From an uncultured Lachnospiraceae bacterium (GTDB lineage: Bacteria > Bacillota > Clostridia > Lachnospirales > Lachnospiraceae): DNA of 36,851 nucleotides. This document shows, piece by piece, positions 14,071-26,829 of this stretch. The translations under genes and the position numbers were made by a program. Under the pieces are notes generated by a model. The model did not search any database. It saw only the letters and a list, made by a program, of their open reading frames with translations, and was not told where the DNA came from. Numbering within the stretch: position 1 is the first letter of the stretch; each line of letters begins with the position of its first letter. The DNA lies in NCBI GenBank assembly GCA_947570615.1, contig CANOVJ010000041.1, positions 1 to 36,851 of the forward strand, in the 5' to 3' direction.

Positions 14071-14697
14071 ATGAAAATACTGGTAACCGGCTTCGAACCC
14101 TTCGGGGGAGAGGCTGTCAATCCGTCCATCGAAACTGTAAACCGGCTGCCGGATCAGATCGCCGGAGCCAGGATCATCAGGCTGGAGATCCCCACCGTGC
14201 GGGGAAAATCCCTCCAGGTGATCGAGGAAGCTCTCAGGCGGCATGATCCCGATGTGATTCTCTGCGTGGGACAGGCAGGCGGCAGAGCGCAGATCAGTGT
14301 GGAGCGGGTGGGAATCAACGTGGACGACTTCTCAATCCCGGACAATGAGGGCAATCAGGTCACGGATCAGCCGGTCTGTCCCGGGGGACCGGACGCCTAC
14401 TTTGTGACCGTGCCCATCAGGGCCATGGCAGAGCGGATCAGAGCGCGGAAGATACCTGCCGGTATCTCCAACACGGCGGGGACCTTCGTGTGCAACCATG
14501 TGACCTACGGGGTCTGTCACATGATCGCCACGAAGTATCCTGGAAAGCGAAGCGGGTTTATCCATATCCCGTTTCTGCCGGAGCAGGTAGCTGAAAAAGG
14601 GGGGACGTCCCAGGCAGGCGCACCGTCCATGTCCGGGGAGATGATGGTGGAGGCCATGTGCGCGGCCATCGAAGCCATTGTGGATACGTCGCAATGA
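14071..14697 (+). CDS. pcp: Pyroglutamyl-peptidase I
   Basis: A 208-residue cytoplasmic cysteine peptidase (family C15) that removes N-terminal pyroglutamate from peptides. It starts with MKILVTGFEPFGGEAVNPS, the family hallmark. The catalytic triad is visible as E78 (VERVGINVDDF), C141 (NTAGTFVCNHV) and H165 (GFIHIPFLPEQ), with spacing like that of characterised enzymes. AGGAGG lies just upstream of the ATG. The gene ends only 4 nt from the end of the convergent erm-like gene, and no terminator is visible between them, so antisense read-through between the two is possible. Confidence 0.95.
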   Translation: MKILVTGFEPFGGEAVNPSIETVNRLPDQIAGARIIRLEIPTVRGKSLQVIEEALRRHDPDVILCVGQAGGRAQISVERVGINVDDFSIPDNEGNQVTDQPVCPGGPDAYFVTVPIRAMAERIRARKIPAGISNTAGTFVCNHVTYGVCHMIATKYPGKRSGFIHIPFLPEQVAEKGGTSQAGAPSMSGEMMVEAMCAAIEAIVDTSQ

Positions 14698-14701
14698 GAG
14701 C

Positions 14702-15505
14702 TTATCCCTTCCTGTCCGGGCGAAAGCGCTGGTAACATCGAAATAAGCAGAGCCACTGGATATACAGGGTGATGCCGCTCTCACAGGCCGGGGGAAGCCC
14801 CGCCCGTTTTAAGGCGGTGTCAGCCTGTTTTCTGGTGAGAAGCCCCGCCCTGCCGCAGACTCCGTATTTCATGGAATGCTCGATAAACCTGCGGAAAGCG
14901 CTCAGGCTGCCGGCGGGAAGGTCGGGCGTGTCCTTTCGTTTCAGGTGAAGCAGAACGGAATCCACGCGGGGCATTGGATGAAAGTCCTCTCTGCGGAAAT
15001 GGTAAAGGATGTTCAGATCCCAGTTTACCTTAAGGAGCAGGGATTTTGTGGTTTCCCGGGGAAATCCCGCAAAGCGCCGGGCCGCGCCCTTTTCCATGAT
15101 CAGCCAGATCTCCGAGGGGGGATTGGAGGCGTTTGTGAGTTTTTCCATGATCTGTGTGGTGATAAAGTAGGGAATGTTGGCAAAAACCTTATAGCCGCCT
15201 TTTTCGGGCAGAGGCATTTCCAGGAAATCGCCGTGGATCAGCTTCAGATTGGTCAGATGAGACAATTTTGCACTGGTGTGTTCAAAGAGCCTGCGGTCAA
15301 GCTCCACGGAACAGACCAGGCCGCTTACTGCGCAGAGGGCTTCGGTGAGATGGCCTTTTCCCGCGCCGATTTCAAGAACGGTATCGTTTTTGCCGATACT
15401 GCTCAGGCTCAGGATTTTGCGGATCAGCTGTCTTCTGGTGAGAAAATTCTGGGAATGGGAGAGTTGTTTTGTATAGTCCCTGCTCTGGGATGTGTTTTTT
15501 TGCAT
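14702..15505 (-). CDS. erm: Erm-family 23S rRNA adenine N6-methyltransferase
   Basis: A 267-residue methyltransferase with the Erm pattern: SQNFLT near the start (18-23), S-adenosylmethionine motif EIGAGKGHLT (45-54), acidic E68 in SVELD, HGDFLEM (91-97), and catalytic NIPY (110-113). Erm enzymes methylate A2058 of 23S rRNA and give resistance to macrolides, lincosamides and streptogramin B. NIPY rather than NLPY, and the C-terminal GITLYIQWLCLFRCY block, argue against the housekeeping KsgA/RsmA. AAGGAGG lies 6 nt from the ATG. It has its own promoter and a leader of about 310 nt with a leader peptide and intrinsic terminator, as expected for drug-inducible expression. I cannot assign a numbered Erm class, and activity is untested. 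Confidence 0.88.
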   Translation of the reverse strand: MQKNTSQSRDYTKQLSHSQNFLTRRQLIRKILSLSSIGKNDTVLEIGAGKGHLTEALCAVSGLVCSVELDRRLFEHTSAKLSHLTNLKLIHGDFLEMPLPEKGGYKVFANIPYFITTQIMEKLTNASNPPSEIWLIMEKGAARRFAGFPRETTKSLLLKVNWDLNILYHFRREDFHPMPRVDSVLLHLKRKDTPDLPAGSLSAFRRFIEHSMKYGVCGRAGLLTRKQADTALKRAGLPPACESGITLYIQWLCLFRCYQRFRPDRKG

Positions 15506-15527
15506 GGCGCGCCTCCTTCATGTCCGG

Positions 15528-15575
15528 AAGCCTGATTATCACGGCCGGAGCGCTTTCTCCGTGCCGGTCAGGCTT
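15528..15575 (-). promoter_or_regulatory. Long hairpin just upstream of the erm ribosome site
   Basis: On the minus strand AAGCCTGA (15575-15568) pairs perfectly with TCAGGCTT (15535-15528). Inside, CGGCACGGAG pairs with CTCCGGCCG with one bulged base. The hairpin ends about 12 nt before the AAGGAGG of erm. It does not contain the Shine-Dalgarno itself, so it may position or protect the site rather than hide it. Confidence 0.6.
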
Positions 15576-15615
15576 CGTATCGCTGCGGATGAATCAGAAT
15601 CCGAAAAGAAGGCAA

Positions 15616-15654
15616 TAAAAAACAGGACATACTCTGCAAATGAGTATTTCCTGT
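15616..15654 (-). terminator. Intrinsic terminator inside the erm leader
   Basis: On the minus strand ACAGGAAATACTC and GAGTATGTCCTGT form a 13-position stem with a single mismatch and a 7-nt loop, followed directly by TTTTTATT. It lies about 110 nt before the erm start and after the leader peptide. This is the layout of transcription attenuation, as described for ermK, rather than only translation attenuation. Confidence 0.8.
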
Positions 15655-15679
15655 CGCAGCGGTTCGTCCCCAGGGGGCT

Positions 15680-15718
15680 CTATGATCTGTTCGCACACAA
15701 AAAAATCCCATTTAACAT
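15680..15718 (-). CDS. Possible second leader peptide of the erm leader
   Basis: A 12-codon frame MLNGIFLCANRS starts 18 nt after the end of the first leader peptide. No good Shine-Dalgarno precedes it. It could be translated by reinitiation, or be chance. It ends 25 nt before the terminator stem, so ribosomes on it could affect terminator folding. Confidence 0.3.
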   Translation of the reverse strand: MLNGIFLCANRS

Positions 15719-15736
15719 GAGTTGGTCAATCTGTTT

Positions 15737-15784
15737 TTATTGCCCCTCAAAACGGGTGCGTGCGCAACGAATAATAATACCCAT
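15737..15784 (-). CDS. Erm leader peptide MGIIIRCARTRFEGQ
   Basis: A 15-residue frame begins about 35 nt after the predicted transcription start, behind AAAGGCGG at 8-10 nt. It contains R-T-R, the Arg/Lys-X-Arg/Lys pattern at which macrolide-bound ribosomes are known to stall (the ErmD leader uses R-L-R). A second basic pair, R6 and R9, lies before it. Stalling here would place a ribosome over the end of the frame and change folding of the RNA towards the terminator at 15616-15654. The translation and stalling are inferred. Confidence 0.65.
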   Translation of the reverse strand: MGIIIRCARTRFEGQ

Positions 15785-15825
15785 GTGTAAGCCGCCTTTG
15801 CTTTAACAGTCTCAGTAACAGTTTC

Positions 15826-15854
15826 AGCATAACACAGGGCGGAGGAGTTGTCAA
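15826..15854 (-). promoter_or_regulatory. Promoter of the erm transcript
   Basis: On the minus strand TTGACA (15854-15849) and TATGCT (15831-15826) have a 17-nt spacer. The -35 hexamer overlaps, on the opposite strand, the -35 hexamer of the divergent gene at 15916. Confidence 0.7.
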
Positions 15855-15885
15855 ATCTTTCAGAATTATAGTATAATTATCTGAA
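15848..15885 (+). promoter_or_regulatory. Promoter of the divergent GyrI-domain gene, with inverted repeat
   Basis: TTGTCA (15848-15853) and TATAAT (15872-15877) with an 18-nt spacer. The -10 box sits between ttcaga (15859-15864) and tctgaa (15880-15885), an inverted repeat whose inner sequence is also nearly palindromic, so a repressor or activator could bind here and affect both divergent promoters. Confidence 0.6.
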
Positions 15886-15915
15886 AAGTTACATAATCGG
15901 AAAGGAGTACGAGCT

Positions 15916-17030
15916 ATGACGCCATTATATGAAAATTTCCACTGGTATGAGCCGGAACAGGACCAGGCGCAGGGAAAAACGCCGCAGGAGAGGTATCGAA
16001 AACTGGTTGACTGGGCCAGTCAGACGCGGGGATTAACCCTGTTGCTTTTGACGCGGTGACACAGTGGCTTCGGGGAAGCGGCAGCTGGAGCGGGGAGGAA
16101 TTTGCCCGAAACCGGAAAATGTTCATGGACGGGATTGTCGGACGTTTTGCGGAGCAGAACCGTCTCCTTGAGGCGGAGCTGAGGGCTCTCGAGCCCTCGG
16201 AAGTGGTTAACCTGGCGGTGTTTGACGCGCTTTCGCGTTTTGACAGCGAACTGTCAGGGGAGAGCGGCGCGGAGGAGCTGCGGGAGGCGGTGGCCCGGGT
16301 TTTTCAGGATTTTTCTGCACTGAGAGAGCGCGGAATCAGGGAGGCCTTTGCGGGGAATGAAACCGGCCCTGCCGGGACGGACAGCGTGGACGTGTACGGC
16401 TATGTGAATGTTCTGAAGGACTGCGACGCATCGGTGCAGTGGACGCTGTTCATGCCGGACTGCGTGGAGCGGCAGCAGGAGGGCTTTCGGGTGGAGAGCT
16501 TTGAATATGTGAAGCTTCCCGCCGTGCGCTTTGTGGGGATGGGCCACGAGCTTACGGAGAGTATGCCGGATCTGGAGCTGGTTACCCGCACTCTTGACGC
16601 CATGGAGAGAGCGCGCAGCGGCTTTGACGCGGACCTGCTTTTGACCCACCATTTCGGCGAGGGCGTGGATGTGCGGCCCTGCCGTCTTGTGTGGGGGCGC
16701 TTTATGCGGGCGGACACGCCGGTTCCGGAGGGCTTTGAGGCTGTGGACTTTCTTCCTCAGTGGGATGGAAAAAAGGGACAGCCCTGTCTGTCGGAGTTTG
16801 CCTTTGCAAAGTTTGAGGGGGATATGGACGCCATGCACAGCCGGGAGGGGTTCGACAGCGACGCCATGTACGACGTGACGCGCAACATCATCCTGGGCCA
16901 GAACGTGCCCATTCCCTATCCCGAAAAATACTGGACGGCGGAGGTTTTTCCGGAGGGATTCGCAAAAGACAGCTCCGCCTATCTGTTCAGCGTAGATAAA
17001 TCCGACACGGACAAATCCGACACGGATTGA
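15916..17030 (+). pseudogene. GyrI-like effector-binding domain protein, frameshifted near its start
   Basis: The ATG at 15916, after AAAGGAG, opens a frame starting MTPLYENFHWYEPEQ that stops after 47 codons. The following sequence (INPVAFDAVTQWLRGSGSW) continues in another frame to 17030. One missing G in the run near 16030 (CGCGGGGATT) explains the break. The joined protein would be about 370 residues: a helical N-terminal half, then a C-terminal GyrI-like beta-rich domain (VKLPAVRFVGMGHELTES to WTAEVFPEGF). It ends with a short DKSDTD duplication from a 15-bp direct repeat near 16997-17029. It may be a drug or small-molecule sensor, which would suit its position divergent from erm. The open downstream frame has a GTG at 16056 but no ribosome site. 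Sequencing error cannot be excluded. Confidence 0.6.
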
Positions 17031-23987: not shown

Positions 23988-25118
23988 ATGAAGCAGGTTC
24001 ATTTGAGAATAGAGGACGAATTATACCACGAGTTAAGCGCCTACGCGGAGTTGACCGGGCAGACCATACAGGACTTTGCCAGGGAGGCGGTGGCCAGCTA
24101 TGTCAGCGATCTGAAAAAGAAGAGCAGGCCGCGCACCCTGCCGGAGGGCCAGTTTTCCTTCATCGATCTCTTTGCGGGAATCGGCGGGATGCGGATTGCC
24201 TTTGAGCGCTGCGGGGGCCACTGCGTGTACTCCAACGAGTGGAATAAATACAGCCAGCAGACCTACTTCGCCAATTTTGGCGAACAGCCCGAGGGGGATA
24301 TCACGAAGGTGAACGCGGCGGATATCCCGGACTGCGACGTGCTGGTGGCGGGCTTCCCCTGTCAGCCCTTCTCCATCGCGGGGGTCTCCAAGAAGAACAG
24401 CCTGGGCAGGGCCACGGGCTTTGAGGACAAGACGCAGGGAACCCTGTTTTTTGACGTGTGCCGGATCCTGAAGGAAAAAAGACCCAAAGCCTTCCTGCTG
24501 GAAAATGTAAAGAATCTTTGCAGCCATGATAGGGGGCGCACCTTTCAGGTGATCAGGGAATCGCTGGACGAGCTGGACTATGAGGTGTTTTATGAGGTTC
24601 TGGACGGCCAGAGGTTTGTGCCCCAGCACAGGGAGAGGATCCTGATCGTGGGCTTTGACCGGAAGAGATACGGCGGCGGGTTCCGGTTTGATTTTGATTT
24701 AAGAGAGGTAAAGCATCCGCCGGTGATGAAGGATATTCTGGAGACGAAGGTGGAGGAGAAGTACACCCTCTCGGATAAGCTCTGGCTCTATCTGCAGGAG
24801 TACGCGGCCCGGCACAGGGCGGCGGGAAACGGGTTCGGCTACGGGATCGCGCCGCCCCAGGGGATCGCCCGGACCTTAAGCGCCAGATATTACAAGGACG
24901 GTTCGGAGATCCTCATCGCCCAGGAGGGGCGAAATCCCCGCCGTCTGACGCCGAGAGAGTGCGCCAGACTGCAGGGGTTTCCGGATTCCTTCAAGATACC
25001 GGTGTCCGACACCCAGGCCTACAGACAGTTCGGGAATTCGGTGGTGGTGCCTCTGATGGAAAATGTGGCCGCTCTGATGACGGATAAGATGAAGGAGCTG
25101 GAGGCACAGGAGAGGTGA
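23988..25118 (+). CDS. dcm: C5-cytosine DNA methyltransferase (Dcm/EcoRII-like) with N-terminal ribbon-helix-helix
   Basis: A 376-residue methyltransferase. Residues 1-45 ([20 protein letters not shown], then an EAVASYV helix) look like a CopG-type ribbon-helix-helix DNA-binding domain. The catalytic domain follows with motif [13 protein letters not shown], motif [10 protein letters not shown] with catalytic C125, motif VI LLENVKN, motif [15 protein letters not shown], the target-recognition region, and motif [12 protein letters not shown]. With the EcoRII-like endonuclease next door, the likely target is CCWGG (methylating the inner C), an inference from the partners. The RHH domain probably autoregulates the cassette, as helix-turn-helix domains do in M.EcoRII and M.SsoII. 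The endonuclease gene starts 6 nt after its stop. Confidence 0.93.
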
Positions 25119-25124
25119 GCGAGA

Positions 25125-26390
25125 ATGGGAGCGGAATATTCCAGCCGGGCCATCAGCGGTGTGCTGAGCGGTTCGGGGGCGTTTTGCAAGTTTTTGTCGG
25201 CCAACGATACCGGGGCTACCGGAGGGCATCAATCCGGGATCCTCGTGTCCAGGTCTGCCATTGCGCTTCTGTTCGGACAGGAGTCCATCCGGGAGCGGAT
25301 CTTAAAGCGTACAGTCAGGATCAGGTGGCAGGACGATTTCGTGACGGAGAGCGCGTTTACCTGGTATGAGAGCAAGGGGGAGCTGCGGATCACCCGGTTT
25401 GGAAGGGGATTTCCCTTCTTAAAGCCCGATCAGACAGGCACTCTTTTTGTGCTGGTCAGACACAGCCGGGAGGACTACTGCGGGTACTTTCTGGAGGCAG
25501 AGGAGGATATCGAGGCCTTCCTGGACGCCTTCGGCCTTGCGCCCACTCAGACCAACAGCCTGATCGATACGGGGCGGATCCAGCCCCGGACGCAGGAAAA
25601 GCTTGCCATACAGGAATTTATCGACGGCCTGAGAGAGGATTTCCCGGCATCGGAGGAAATGTCCGCCGCCGCCAGAAGGATTTATGAGGCGGTATATGGG
25701 CAGAGCGGGGATGGCTTTTCCGGCCCGGGCCCGGGCGCGGGGAGCCGGATGGGGCAGGCGAGGGCCTTAAGCGGCCAGATGGAGGAGAACCGGAACCGGC
25801 AGAAGCTCATCAGCCCGGATAAAAGTCTGATCGAGTGGACGAACATGGAATATACCCTTTTCCGGGCGCTGGAGTATGCCAGATATGGAGAGCTGATCGC
25901 CGGCGGCTTTTCCTCGGTGGAGGAGTTTGTGAGGGTGGCCAACATGGTGCTCAACAGGAGAAAGAGCAGGGCGGGAAAGAGCCTGGAGCATCACCTGTGC
26001 GCGATCTTCGACAGTCGGCAGATTGCCTACACCGCCCAGGCGGTGACGGAGGGAAACAAGAGGCCGGACTTTCTTTTTCCCTCGGCAGAAGCTTATCACG
26101 ACAGGAGCTTTCCGGTGGAGAGACTGACTTCTCTTGCCGCCAAGACCACCTGCAAGGACCGATGGCGTCAGGTCATAAACGAGGCCGACAGACTTAAGAG
26201 CAGGCCCAAATTTCTCTGCACTCTGCAGCAGGGGATTTCCGGTGCGCAGATGGACGAGATGCAGGCGGAGAACGTTATTCTGGTGGTGCCCCGGCCCTAT
26301 ATCAGAACCTACCCGGCGGACCGGCAGAGCAGGATCTGGACGGTGGAGGGATTTGTCAGATACGTGCAGGAGGTAGAAGATGGACATTAA
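25125..26390 (+). CDS. EcoRII-like type IIE restriction endonuclease
   Basis: A 421-residue endonuclease. The N-terminal part (about 1-165) fits the EcoRII effector-binding domain (SGILVSRSAIALLFG, VRIRWQDDFVTESAFTWYESK). The C-terminal part (about 235-420) fits the PD-(D/E)XK catalytic domain: KSLEHHLCAIF, RPDFLFP (D315), and KTTCKDRWRQVINEADR (K340, K344). EcoRII cuts before CCWGG and needs a second site as an effector. The gene lies between the matching methyltransferase and vsr on the same strand, and its end overlaps the vsr start by 11 nt. Specificity is inferred from family. Confidence 0.92.
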   Translation: MGAEYSSRAISGVLSGSGAFCKFLSANDTGATGGHQSGILVSRSAIALLFGQESIRERILKRTVRIRWQDDFVTESAFTWYESKGELRITRFGRGFPFLKPDQTGTLFVLVRHSREDYCGYFLEAEEDIEAFLDAFGLAPTQTNSLIDTGRIQPRTQEKLAIQEFIDGLREDFPASEEMSAAARRIYEAVYGQSGDGFSGPGPGAGSRMGQARALSGQMEENRNRQKLISPDKSLIEWTNMEYTLFRALEYARYGELIAGGFSSVEEFVRVANMVLNRRKSRAGKSLEHHLCAIFDSRQIAYTAQAVTEGNKRPDFLFPSAEAYHDRSFPVERLTSLAAKTTCKDRWRQVINEADRLKSRPKFLCTLQQGISGAQMDEMQAENVILVVPRPYIRTYPADRQSRIWTVEGFVRYVQEVEDGH

Positions 26391-26829
26391 AAGCCAACAG
26401 GAGCGCAGCAAAAATATGGCGGCTATCCGCTCCAGGAACACGTCCCCCGAGCTTTATCTACGAAAGCTGCTTTTTGCCCGTGGCTACCGTTACCGTGTGA
26501 ATGTATCCAATATACCGGGCCATCCCGACCTCTATCTGCGCAAATATAATACGGCGGTCTTTGTAAACGGATGCTTCTGGCACCGGCACGAGGGCTGCAG
26601 GTTCGCCTACACGCCCAAGTCCAGAGTGGAGTTCTGGCAGAAGAAATTCGAGGCCAATAAGCGCCGGGATATGCAGGTGCGCGCGGAGCTTGAGGAGAGG
26701 GGGATCAGGCGCCTGGTTGTGTGGGAATGCGCCATCAGACAGATGAAAAAGAAGCCGGAGCTTTGCGGGGCGTATCTTGAGCAGGTGGAGGATTTTCTGA
26801 AGGGGGAGGAGATGGAGCGGGAGATATAA
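26380..26829 (+). CDS. vsr: Very short patch repair endonuclease Vsr
   Basis: A 149-residue nickase that recognises T:G mismatches made when 5-methylcytosine deaminates at Dcm sites. Motifs: RSRNTSPEL at 17-25, GHPDLYL with catalytic D50, and NGCFWHRHEGC with zinc ligands C65, H70, C73, plus a fourth Cys in VWECAIRQ. N63 replaces the His found at this place in the E. coli enzyme (FVHG), which may change the active-site general base. The gene overlaps the endonuclease by 11 nt and is thus translationally coupled to it. Confidence 0.94.
   Translation: MDIKSQQERSKNMAAIRSRNTSPELYLRKLLFARGYRYRVNVSNIPGHPDLYLRKYNTAVFVNGCFWHRHEGCRFAYTPKSRVEFWQKKFEANKRRDMQVRAELEERGIRRLVVWECAIRQMKKKPELCGAYLEQVEDFLKGEEMEREI

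Follow-up and report, generated by a model that had tools for sequence, protein, structure and literature searches.

The ermK/ermD attenuator of Bacillus controls an erm gene behind the leader peptide MTHSMRLRFPTLNQ. Transcriptional attenuation has also been described for mef(E)/mel (mef(A)/msr(D)), with the leader peptide MTASMRLR (PMC4335068; PMC10314930), and for yxjB of B. subtilis, which encodes RlmA-II and was reported to depend on a tylosin-induced attenuator that requires NusG-dependent pausing, toeprinting having placed the X of its R-X-R motif in the P site of the ribosome (PMC6851288). Here, we have analysed the leader of an erm gene from an uncultured Lachnospiraceae bacterium, found on a stretch of 36,851 nucleotides (nt) (GenBank assembly GCA_947570615.1, contig CANOVJ010000041.1, positions 1 to 36,851), hereafter called the window; promoter, leader and gene all lie on its minus strand. 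In all likelihood, this leader is a ribosome-mediated transcription attenuator which responds to macrolides or to other drugs that make ribosomes stall at Arg-X-Arg, and, judging from folding models, its upstream open reading frame (uORF) and folding RNA very probably restrict Erm production to drug-stalled ribosomes. We have established the anatomy and conservation of this leader, a complementarity which tracks the partners within each leader, the register between peptide and RNA, and its modelled switching.

Results

An earlier sequence-only reading of the window had proposed a sigma-A promoter, a 15-codon peptide and a strong intrinsic terminator, all of which were found. The promoter spans 15826-15854 and consists of a -35 element TTGACA (15849-15854), a spacer of 17 nt and a -10 element TATGCT (15826-15831) directly preceded by TG; among the related leaders, promoter-like sites within 130 nt upstream of the uORF were present in 42 of 49, as compared to 71 of 490 shuffles. 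The Shine-Dalgarno sequence AAAGGCGG (15792-15799; consensus of 42 aligned leaders, AAAGGTGGCTT) is followed by the uORF (15737-15784), encoding the 15-codon leader peptide MGIIIRCARTRFEGQ, whose motif of two basic residues around a third (+X+) is kept in relatives. Here it reads R-T-R (codons at 15752-15760), with Thr10 (15755-15757) as the predicted P-site codon. The terminator, T2 (15622-15654), was recognised by folding and comparison and is a hairpin followed by a U-tract, with an energy of -15.6 kcal/mol in one fold and -18.0 kcal/mol in another. A simple terminator scan of 14500-16400 listed four other candidates and did not pick up T2, the stem of which has one mismatch.

Two features go beyond that reading, namely an antiterminator strand within and after the uORF and a pairing of the uORF itself with a downstream segment. 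Segment 1a, the body of the uORF (15758-15779), pairs with segment 2 (GTGTGCGAACAGATCATAG, 15680-15698) when free of ribosomes, as indicated by folding and by a partner-swap test, the stem being broken up by mismatches in the window. Segment 1b (GGCAATAAAAACAG, 15731-15744) comprises the last codons, the stop codon and an A-run and is the predicted 5' strand of the antiterminator; its partner (15611-15625) consists of the end of the 3' arm of T2, the U-tract and ATTGCC. A typical 1b reads GGCxxTAAAAAAGCAG and, in the common 15-codon form, likewise spans last codons, stop and A-run. T1 (15699-15721), a weak hairpin followed by seven T, is proposed as a polymerase pause site or a weak first terminator; its energy is -3.7 kcal/mol in the window and ranges from -3.3 to -10.0 kcal/mol among relatives, and its T run is invariant across the 42 aligned leaders. 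As a whole, the 314-nt leader folds better than 100 of 100 dinucleotide shuffles (z = -4.66), and Rfam gave no match for the window or for the leader alone.

The two pairings follow their partners from leader to leader. In 45 leaders, the 1a:2 duplex had a mean energy of -21.0 kcal/mol with its own partner, -15.7 with the partners of other leaders and -9.2 with shuffled sequences, and the corresponding values for 1b and the T2 tail were -22.8, -21.2 and -8.3 kcal/mol. For neither pairing did any of 2000 partner permutations match the observed mean. Taken singly, the own partner beat a swapped one in 1714 of 1960 comparisons for 1a:2 and in 1092 of 1780 for 1b, where the pair is conserved and the result less clean; as these leaders share kinship, the statistics do not represent 45 independent events. 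L006, L039 and L043 were excluded from both the swap test and the footprint test described below, L028, L038 and L056 from the swap test as well, and the uORFs of L009, L011, L026 and L028 were assigned by hand. One variable pair of the antiterminator was A:U in 20, G:U in 17 and G:C in 11 of 48 leaders, never A:C, with 3 of 51 unscored. Both 1b and the T2 tail of the window have changed together, AACAG with CUGUU, while most relatives carry AGCAG with CUGCU. The duplex of both strands in the window is predicted at -17.4 kcal/mol versus -18.0 kcal/mol for the T2 hairpin, and the two structures are therefore balanced.

A second constraint concerns the register, counted in nt from the codon for X of the last +X+ (the predicted P site) to the GGCxxTA of 1b. 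It is 13 nt in 45 of the 51 leaders, 14 in four, 12 in one and 19 in one, with uORFs ranging from 7 to 16 codons; in the outlier at 19 nt, L033, R-T-R has changed to R-T-H. The uORFs of L034, L036, L039 and L045 end directly after R-T-R with 1b still present (at 13 nt in the three of them listed singly). Since 1b persists beyond these shortened uORFs, it is kept as RNA and not as peptide, and the last residues of the window peptide therefore probably serve RNA pairing.

A scan of a species-level genome collection gave 131 stretches encoding Erm relatives, the best 80 of which were used. L066, L071 and L083 were left out of the uORF tally, their erm start being too near the contig end. An R-X-R or K-X-R uORF lies upstream of erm in 75 of the 77 judgeable relatives among these best 80 of 131, comprising the 50 of the main set, four close ones (L007, L029, L044, L057) and 21 distant ones, the latter counted without a requirement for a Shine-Dalgarno sequence. 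Under a fixed rule (start codon, Shine-Dalgarno sequence, 5-20 codons, motif near the end), applied to the 77 loci and the window, a uORF with R-[T/I]-R was found in 56 of 78 erm upstream regions versus 1 of 780 shuffles, and one with the looser [RK]-X-[RK] in 60 of 78 versus 40 of 780. The peptides include MGIIIRCARTRIQGQ, MLICVFRRIRIQGR, MINCVVRIRTRIQGR, MLIARIR and MGIIIRIR as well as the K-S-R-bearing MGVCNCRKSRIQGQ. The leaders with K-S-R are L016 and L035; in L056, a divergent relative, the peptide reads MTHSMRIRK. A T2-type terminator is kept in the closer relatives. An R-X-R (rarely K-X-R) uORF and a terminator thus recur in homologous leaders, and a lack of conservation of peptide and terminator, which the sequence-only reading had named as evidence against itself, is ruled out.

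Distant erm relatives, mostly of the Oscillospiraceae (L060, L062-L065, L067, L068, L072-L082), show another switch, 100-280 nt upstream of erm. In these loci, a sequence resembling UACACCUC, immediately ahead of the uORF start, complements the erm Shine-Dalgarno sequence (own mean -13.4 versus shuffled -4.9 kcal/mol, 18 loci), and a terminator-like hairpin starting 10-16 nt after the predicted P codon is present in 5 of the 18.

Modelled footprints were obtained by folding 48 leaders with a 30-nt ribosome mask. A P site placed 3 nt upstream of the stall codon gave the antiterminator a probability above 0.4 in 47 of 48 leaders, and a footprint at the stall codon itself did so in 36 of 48; with footprints from +9 to +39, T2 exceeded 0.5 in 46 to 48 of 48. 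In the window, the probability of T2 was 0.99 when free, 0.01 at -3, 0.55 at 0 and 0.99 at +15, and masking everything up to +15 gave 0.00 for T2 and 0.99 for the antiterminator. Folding with a footprint, the check which the sequence-only reading had suggested, hence yields the predicted switch, T2 being off for footprints as far as approximately the stall codon and on for those past it. Its central proposal, that stalling at R-T-R would prevent the terminator, gains support from conservation, the near-fixed register and these modelled footprints.

The leader family extends beyond erm. R1, a model built from erm leaders only, matched 13 of 299 genomes of the family, these being the window and 12 others, in which a uORF MLICVR (nine) or MLIFVR (three) leads into one of two mef-like genes; the proteins of L086 and L095 are Mef(A)-like, with 542 and 556 bits under the cut-off of 675. 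The Mef-like pump leader with MLICVR (L086-L094, L115, L134-L139) has an identical leader score in nine genera of the Lachnospiraceae family, both with R1 and with the model R2 described below. MLICVR is devoid of +X+ and resembles the LIF of MsrDL (MYLIFM; PMC10314930). Among genomes of the class, R1 matched 13 of 391 at E <= 0.05, namely the window, L091 and 11 others (L100-L110). L100 was read as a real leader, and the other ten, all below 30 bits, were taken as chance or coding sequence; no T2-type terminator was found in L101, L107, L109 and L110. Nucleotide searches of plasmids returned nothing for the L087 leader (E limit 1e-5) or the window leader (E limit 1).

R2, a sequence-only model which includes the mef leaders (RNAalifold did not find a shared base pair in the mixed alignment A3), matched 18 of 398 genomes of the phylum and 22 of 344 of the order. 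The weak matches L124, L125, L127-L131, L133, L149, L152 and L153 resemble coding sequence or unrelated DNA and were dropped, and the leader of L144 is of the MLHSMRIR kind. Ten proteins behind convincing R2 leaders were tested against protein models. L116 is Mef(A) (783.6 bits, cut-off 675), and L126 and L148 are Mef-like; L132, L119 and L122 are Msr-type ABC-F proteins, truncated at the locus ends, each above the general cut-off for ABC-F ribosomal protection; L140 passes the Erm cut-off, which the short frame L151 does not. L120 and L121 are RlmN/Cfr-like radical SAM proteins under every specific RlmN and Cfr cut-off, and L146 is a radical SAM protein by Pfam only. The genes of these last three (L120, 1752-2732; L121, 153-1136, minus strand; L146, 1941-2930) lie behind uORFs MLHSIRIWK or MLHSMRIR and encode candidate drug-inducible rRNA methyltransferases.

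A test for a downstream partner of 1b covered 21 leaders that do not belong to the main erm set. Eleven of them did better than each of the 30 shuffles, L132 drew level, and L126, L148, L100, L095, L122, L121, L146, L150 and L123 failed. The failure of L095 rests on a wrongly chosen uORF; its MLIFVR uORF has a partner at -8.0 kcal/mol, and that of the near-identical L097 one at -16.8 kcal/mol. By gene, 7 of 11 Mef-type and both Erm leaders passed; of the ABC-F leaders, L119 passed, L132 tied and L122 failed, and of the RlmN/Cfr-like ones, L120 passed while L121 and L146 failed. We consider the presence of this leader family firm before Mef and Erm genes, fair before ABC-F genes and provisional before RlmN/Cfr-like genes. 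On balance, we lean towards a single portable attenuator RNA having moved between unrelated Erm, Mef, Msr-type ABC-F and unassigned RlmN/Cfr-like genes, with an interchangeable sensor peptide (R-X-R, K-S-R, MLIFVR/MLICVR) and a register held within about 1-2 nt. If so, genes behind the leader RNA could be predicted to be macrolide-related resistance genes.

The chromosomal erm gene itself (14702-15505) encodes a 23S rRNA adenine methyltransferase of 267 amino acids, which NCBIfam models assign to the broad Erm family and to no named class. It passes the broad model NF000499 with 217.6 bits (cut-off 212), and reaches the cut-off of none of the named classes (among them A, B, C, F, G and 42), the top class model giving 140.1 bits versus 475. 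No plasmid record reaches 60% identity, all 1778 matching records being below this value, and the next best match to Erm within its own genome has 34% identity. In its closest relative, L007 (74% identity), the terminator (about 250-420 of that locus) almost abuts the erm homology, which starts there at residue 21. A pcp homologue adjoins erm in L007 and likewise in the window, and the left-hand neighbour of the window gene is common to L007 only, within the flanks fetched for the relatives. In L050, another erm relative, a T2-type hairpin resembling a terminator lies some 350 nt upstream. The gene at 16056-17030 beside erm in the window matched nothing in Pfam or NCBIfam, nor in 36 other genomes of the genus (E <= 1e-20). 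Farther away, frames at 23988-26829 resemble, by eye, a C5 DNA methyltransferase, a restriction-like protein and a Vsr-type endonuclease.

Discussion

From these results, we infer a course of events for drug-induced stalling, the stalled codon, termination, read-through and pausing. In the absence of drug, ribosomes would translate the uORF to its end. First the ribosome positioned at the stop codon and later the 1a:2 stem together with T1 would hold 1b off the terminator, T2 would form, and transcription would stop before erm. In the presence of drug, the ribosome would halt when the codon for Thr10 occupies the P site and that for Arg11 the A site, covering 1a and leaving 1b at or just beyond its leading edge. 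1b could then pair with the end of the 3' arm of T2 and the U-tract, which would block T2 and let the polymerase enter erm. The U-rich T1 probably pauses the polymerase, letting the ribosome catch up, a role that the NusG-dependent pausing at yxjB supports but does not show.

Several observations weigh against this reading. Two of the erm relatives, L050 and L058, have no recognisable +X+ leader. A footprint at the exact stall codon splits the window (T2 at 0.55 versus antiterminator at 0.44) and favours T2 in 12 of 48 leaders, and the outcome therefore hinges on 1-3 nt of the assumed ribosome edge. The stalled setting leaves T2 at 0.99 in L034, and L020 (0.63) and L048 (0.57) lean towards T2. 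In ribosome-free equilibrium folding, T2 is favoured in only 25 of 48 leaders, which means that elsewhere the OFF state must be due to the terminating ribosome or to the order in which the RNA folds; the models suggest that it probably depends on a ribosome completing the uORF and on that order. Footprints from -36 to -3 also antiterminate, in 42 to 47 of 48 leaders (the window keeps T2 with footprints at -24 and -27), and the RNA alone therefore gives no drug specificity. Finally, deletion of the equivalent of 1b in mef(E) raised uninduced expression, which PMC4335068 ascribes to a new pairing.

A stall might instead act on translation, as in ermC or ermB, by freeing an erm ribosome site that would otherwise be hidden by the hairpin at 15527-15576 or by long-range pairing. 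Indeed, in the minimum-energy fold of the full leader, its 5' end is paired with the stretch preceding the erm start, and the distant, Oscillospirales-type erm loci carry the complement of the erm Shine-Dalgarno sequence ahead of their uORFs. We regard this as improbable, as the strong hairpin of the window stops 8 nt short of the erm Shine-Dalgarno sequence (AAGGAGG, 15512-15518), and no copy of it was seen by eye in the erm upstream regions of relatives, in which uORF, 1b and T2 recur; nor was a conserved hairpin of the ermC type, sequestering the erm ribosome site, seen by eye in the window and its relatives. The second hairpin of the sequence-only reading (given as 15528-15575) accordingly does fold (-28.8 kcal/mol when folded alone), yet it is not a conserved part of the leader. 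It could act in addition to attenuation.

It is very unlikely that the leader is a general amino-acid or translation-stress attenuator, in which starvation and not a drug would slow ribosomes at arginine codons. The uORF does contain three Arg codons, and in the model footprints on other upstream codons antiterminate in most leaders; what is kept, however, is a single +X+ at a near-fixed distance, which in L016 and L035 reads K-S-R; the number of Arg codons is not kept, and the genes behind related leaders belong mostly to drug-resistance families. Hardly any more credible is a constitutive or decayed leader with uORF and hairpins as relics and erm expressed or silent whatever the drug, for although T1 of the window is among the weakest, its 1a:2 stem has mismatches and erm is sporadic in the genus (3 of 37 genomes, its own included, E <= 1e-40), 1b and the T2 tail differ from relatives together, neither spacing nor reading frame is disturbed, and a clear switch is predicted for the window.

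Returning to the drug-sensing transcription attenuator, the gut Lachnospiraceae-type erm of unnamed class is probably silent until a macrolide arrives, and genotype alone may therefore mislead on inducible resistance. The near-fixed distance from stall codon to antiterminator offers a simple, testable design rule, and the leader RNA can be used as a search handle, having led to ABC-F, Mef-like and RlmN/Cfr-like genes. The sequence-only reading had not placed the peptide among the classic Erm leaders, and it is not known to resemble a published leader; the RNA switch itself belongs to the mef(E)/mel type already published. What we describe appears to be a known attenuator plan with a sensor peptide and a host gene that are new to it, in a family apparently wider than the papers found describe. 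Beyond the sequence-only reading, the analysis adds the antiterminator, the 13-nt register, the distribution and the kinship with mef-type leaders; by title and beginning of the abstract, no open PMC paper was recognised on this erm leader family or on its sharing among four gene types.

The mef(A) leaders are also covered by the Rfam family RF02862, 'Enterococcus sRNA 1300', over the full model length with 266-271 bits (L111, 206-436; L112, 196-425; L113, 206-436). This RNA is probably the prematurely terminated transcript of the mef attenuator; no paper on it was found in the open PMC literature.

Compared with known systems, the leader shares with ermC and ermB a leader peptide with macrolide-dependent stalling before erm, whereas control acts there on the translation of the gene, according to PMC5418344, and is predicted here to act on an intrinsic terminator. 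With ermK/ermD it has in common an erm gene under transcription attenuation with a +X+ leader peptide; ermK is reported in PMC4335068 to have two adjacent terminators. As in yxjB, a stall at R-X-R in the leader peptide would allow the polymerase to read through a terminator that precedes the gene of a 23S rRNA methyltransferase. In contrast, no overlapping antiterminator was identified in yxjB, where an additional hairpin sequesters the Shine-Dalgarno sequence (PMC6851288).

The closest likeness is that to mef(E)/mel. By comparison with PMC4335068, both have a +X+ leader peptide with a ribosome site, a stem joining the uORF region to a segment farther downstream (R1/R2 there, 1a:2 here), a strand after the uORF (dIR1, here 1b) that pairs with the terminator and poly-U (dIR2, here the T2 tail), and an intrinsic terminator (R5/R6, here the predicted T2 with its U-tract). 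Indeed, the mef(A) leader L111 contains a 1b-type GGCAATAAGAAAAGCAG and a tail-type CTGCATTTTTTTATTGCC, and in mef(A) leaders of streptococcal and Erysipelothrix phages GGCAATAA begins 12 nt after the predicted P codon. The differences are an efflux pump gene there and erm here, with a window peptide of 15 codons that contains RCARTR, and an antiterminator strand starting 6 nt past the uORF there, whereas that of the window includes the last codons and stop. The middle hairpin R3/R4, which PMC4335068 gives as needed for expression, has no clear counterpart in the window; most relatives have a sequence-variable extra stretch between segment 2 and T2, and the window only a short one. R1 matched the Lachnospiraceae mef-like leaders with E-values from 1e-7 to 2e-4 and did not match the phage mef(A) leaders L111-L113, a gap bridged by intermediates such as L046-L048 and L056 and by the common anatomy. 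It is well supported that the window leader works like the mef(E) attenuator, and common descent of the window leader and the mef(E)-type leaders is likely.
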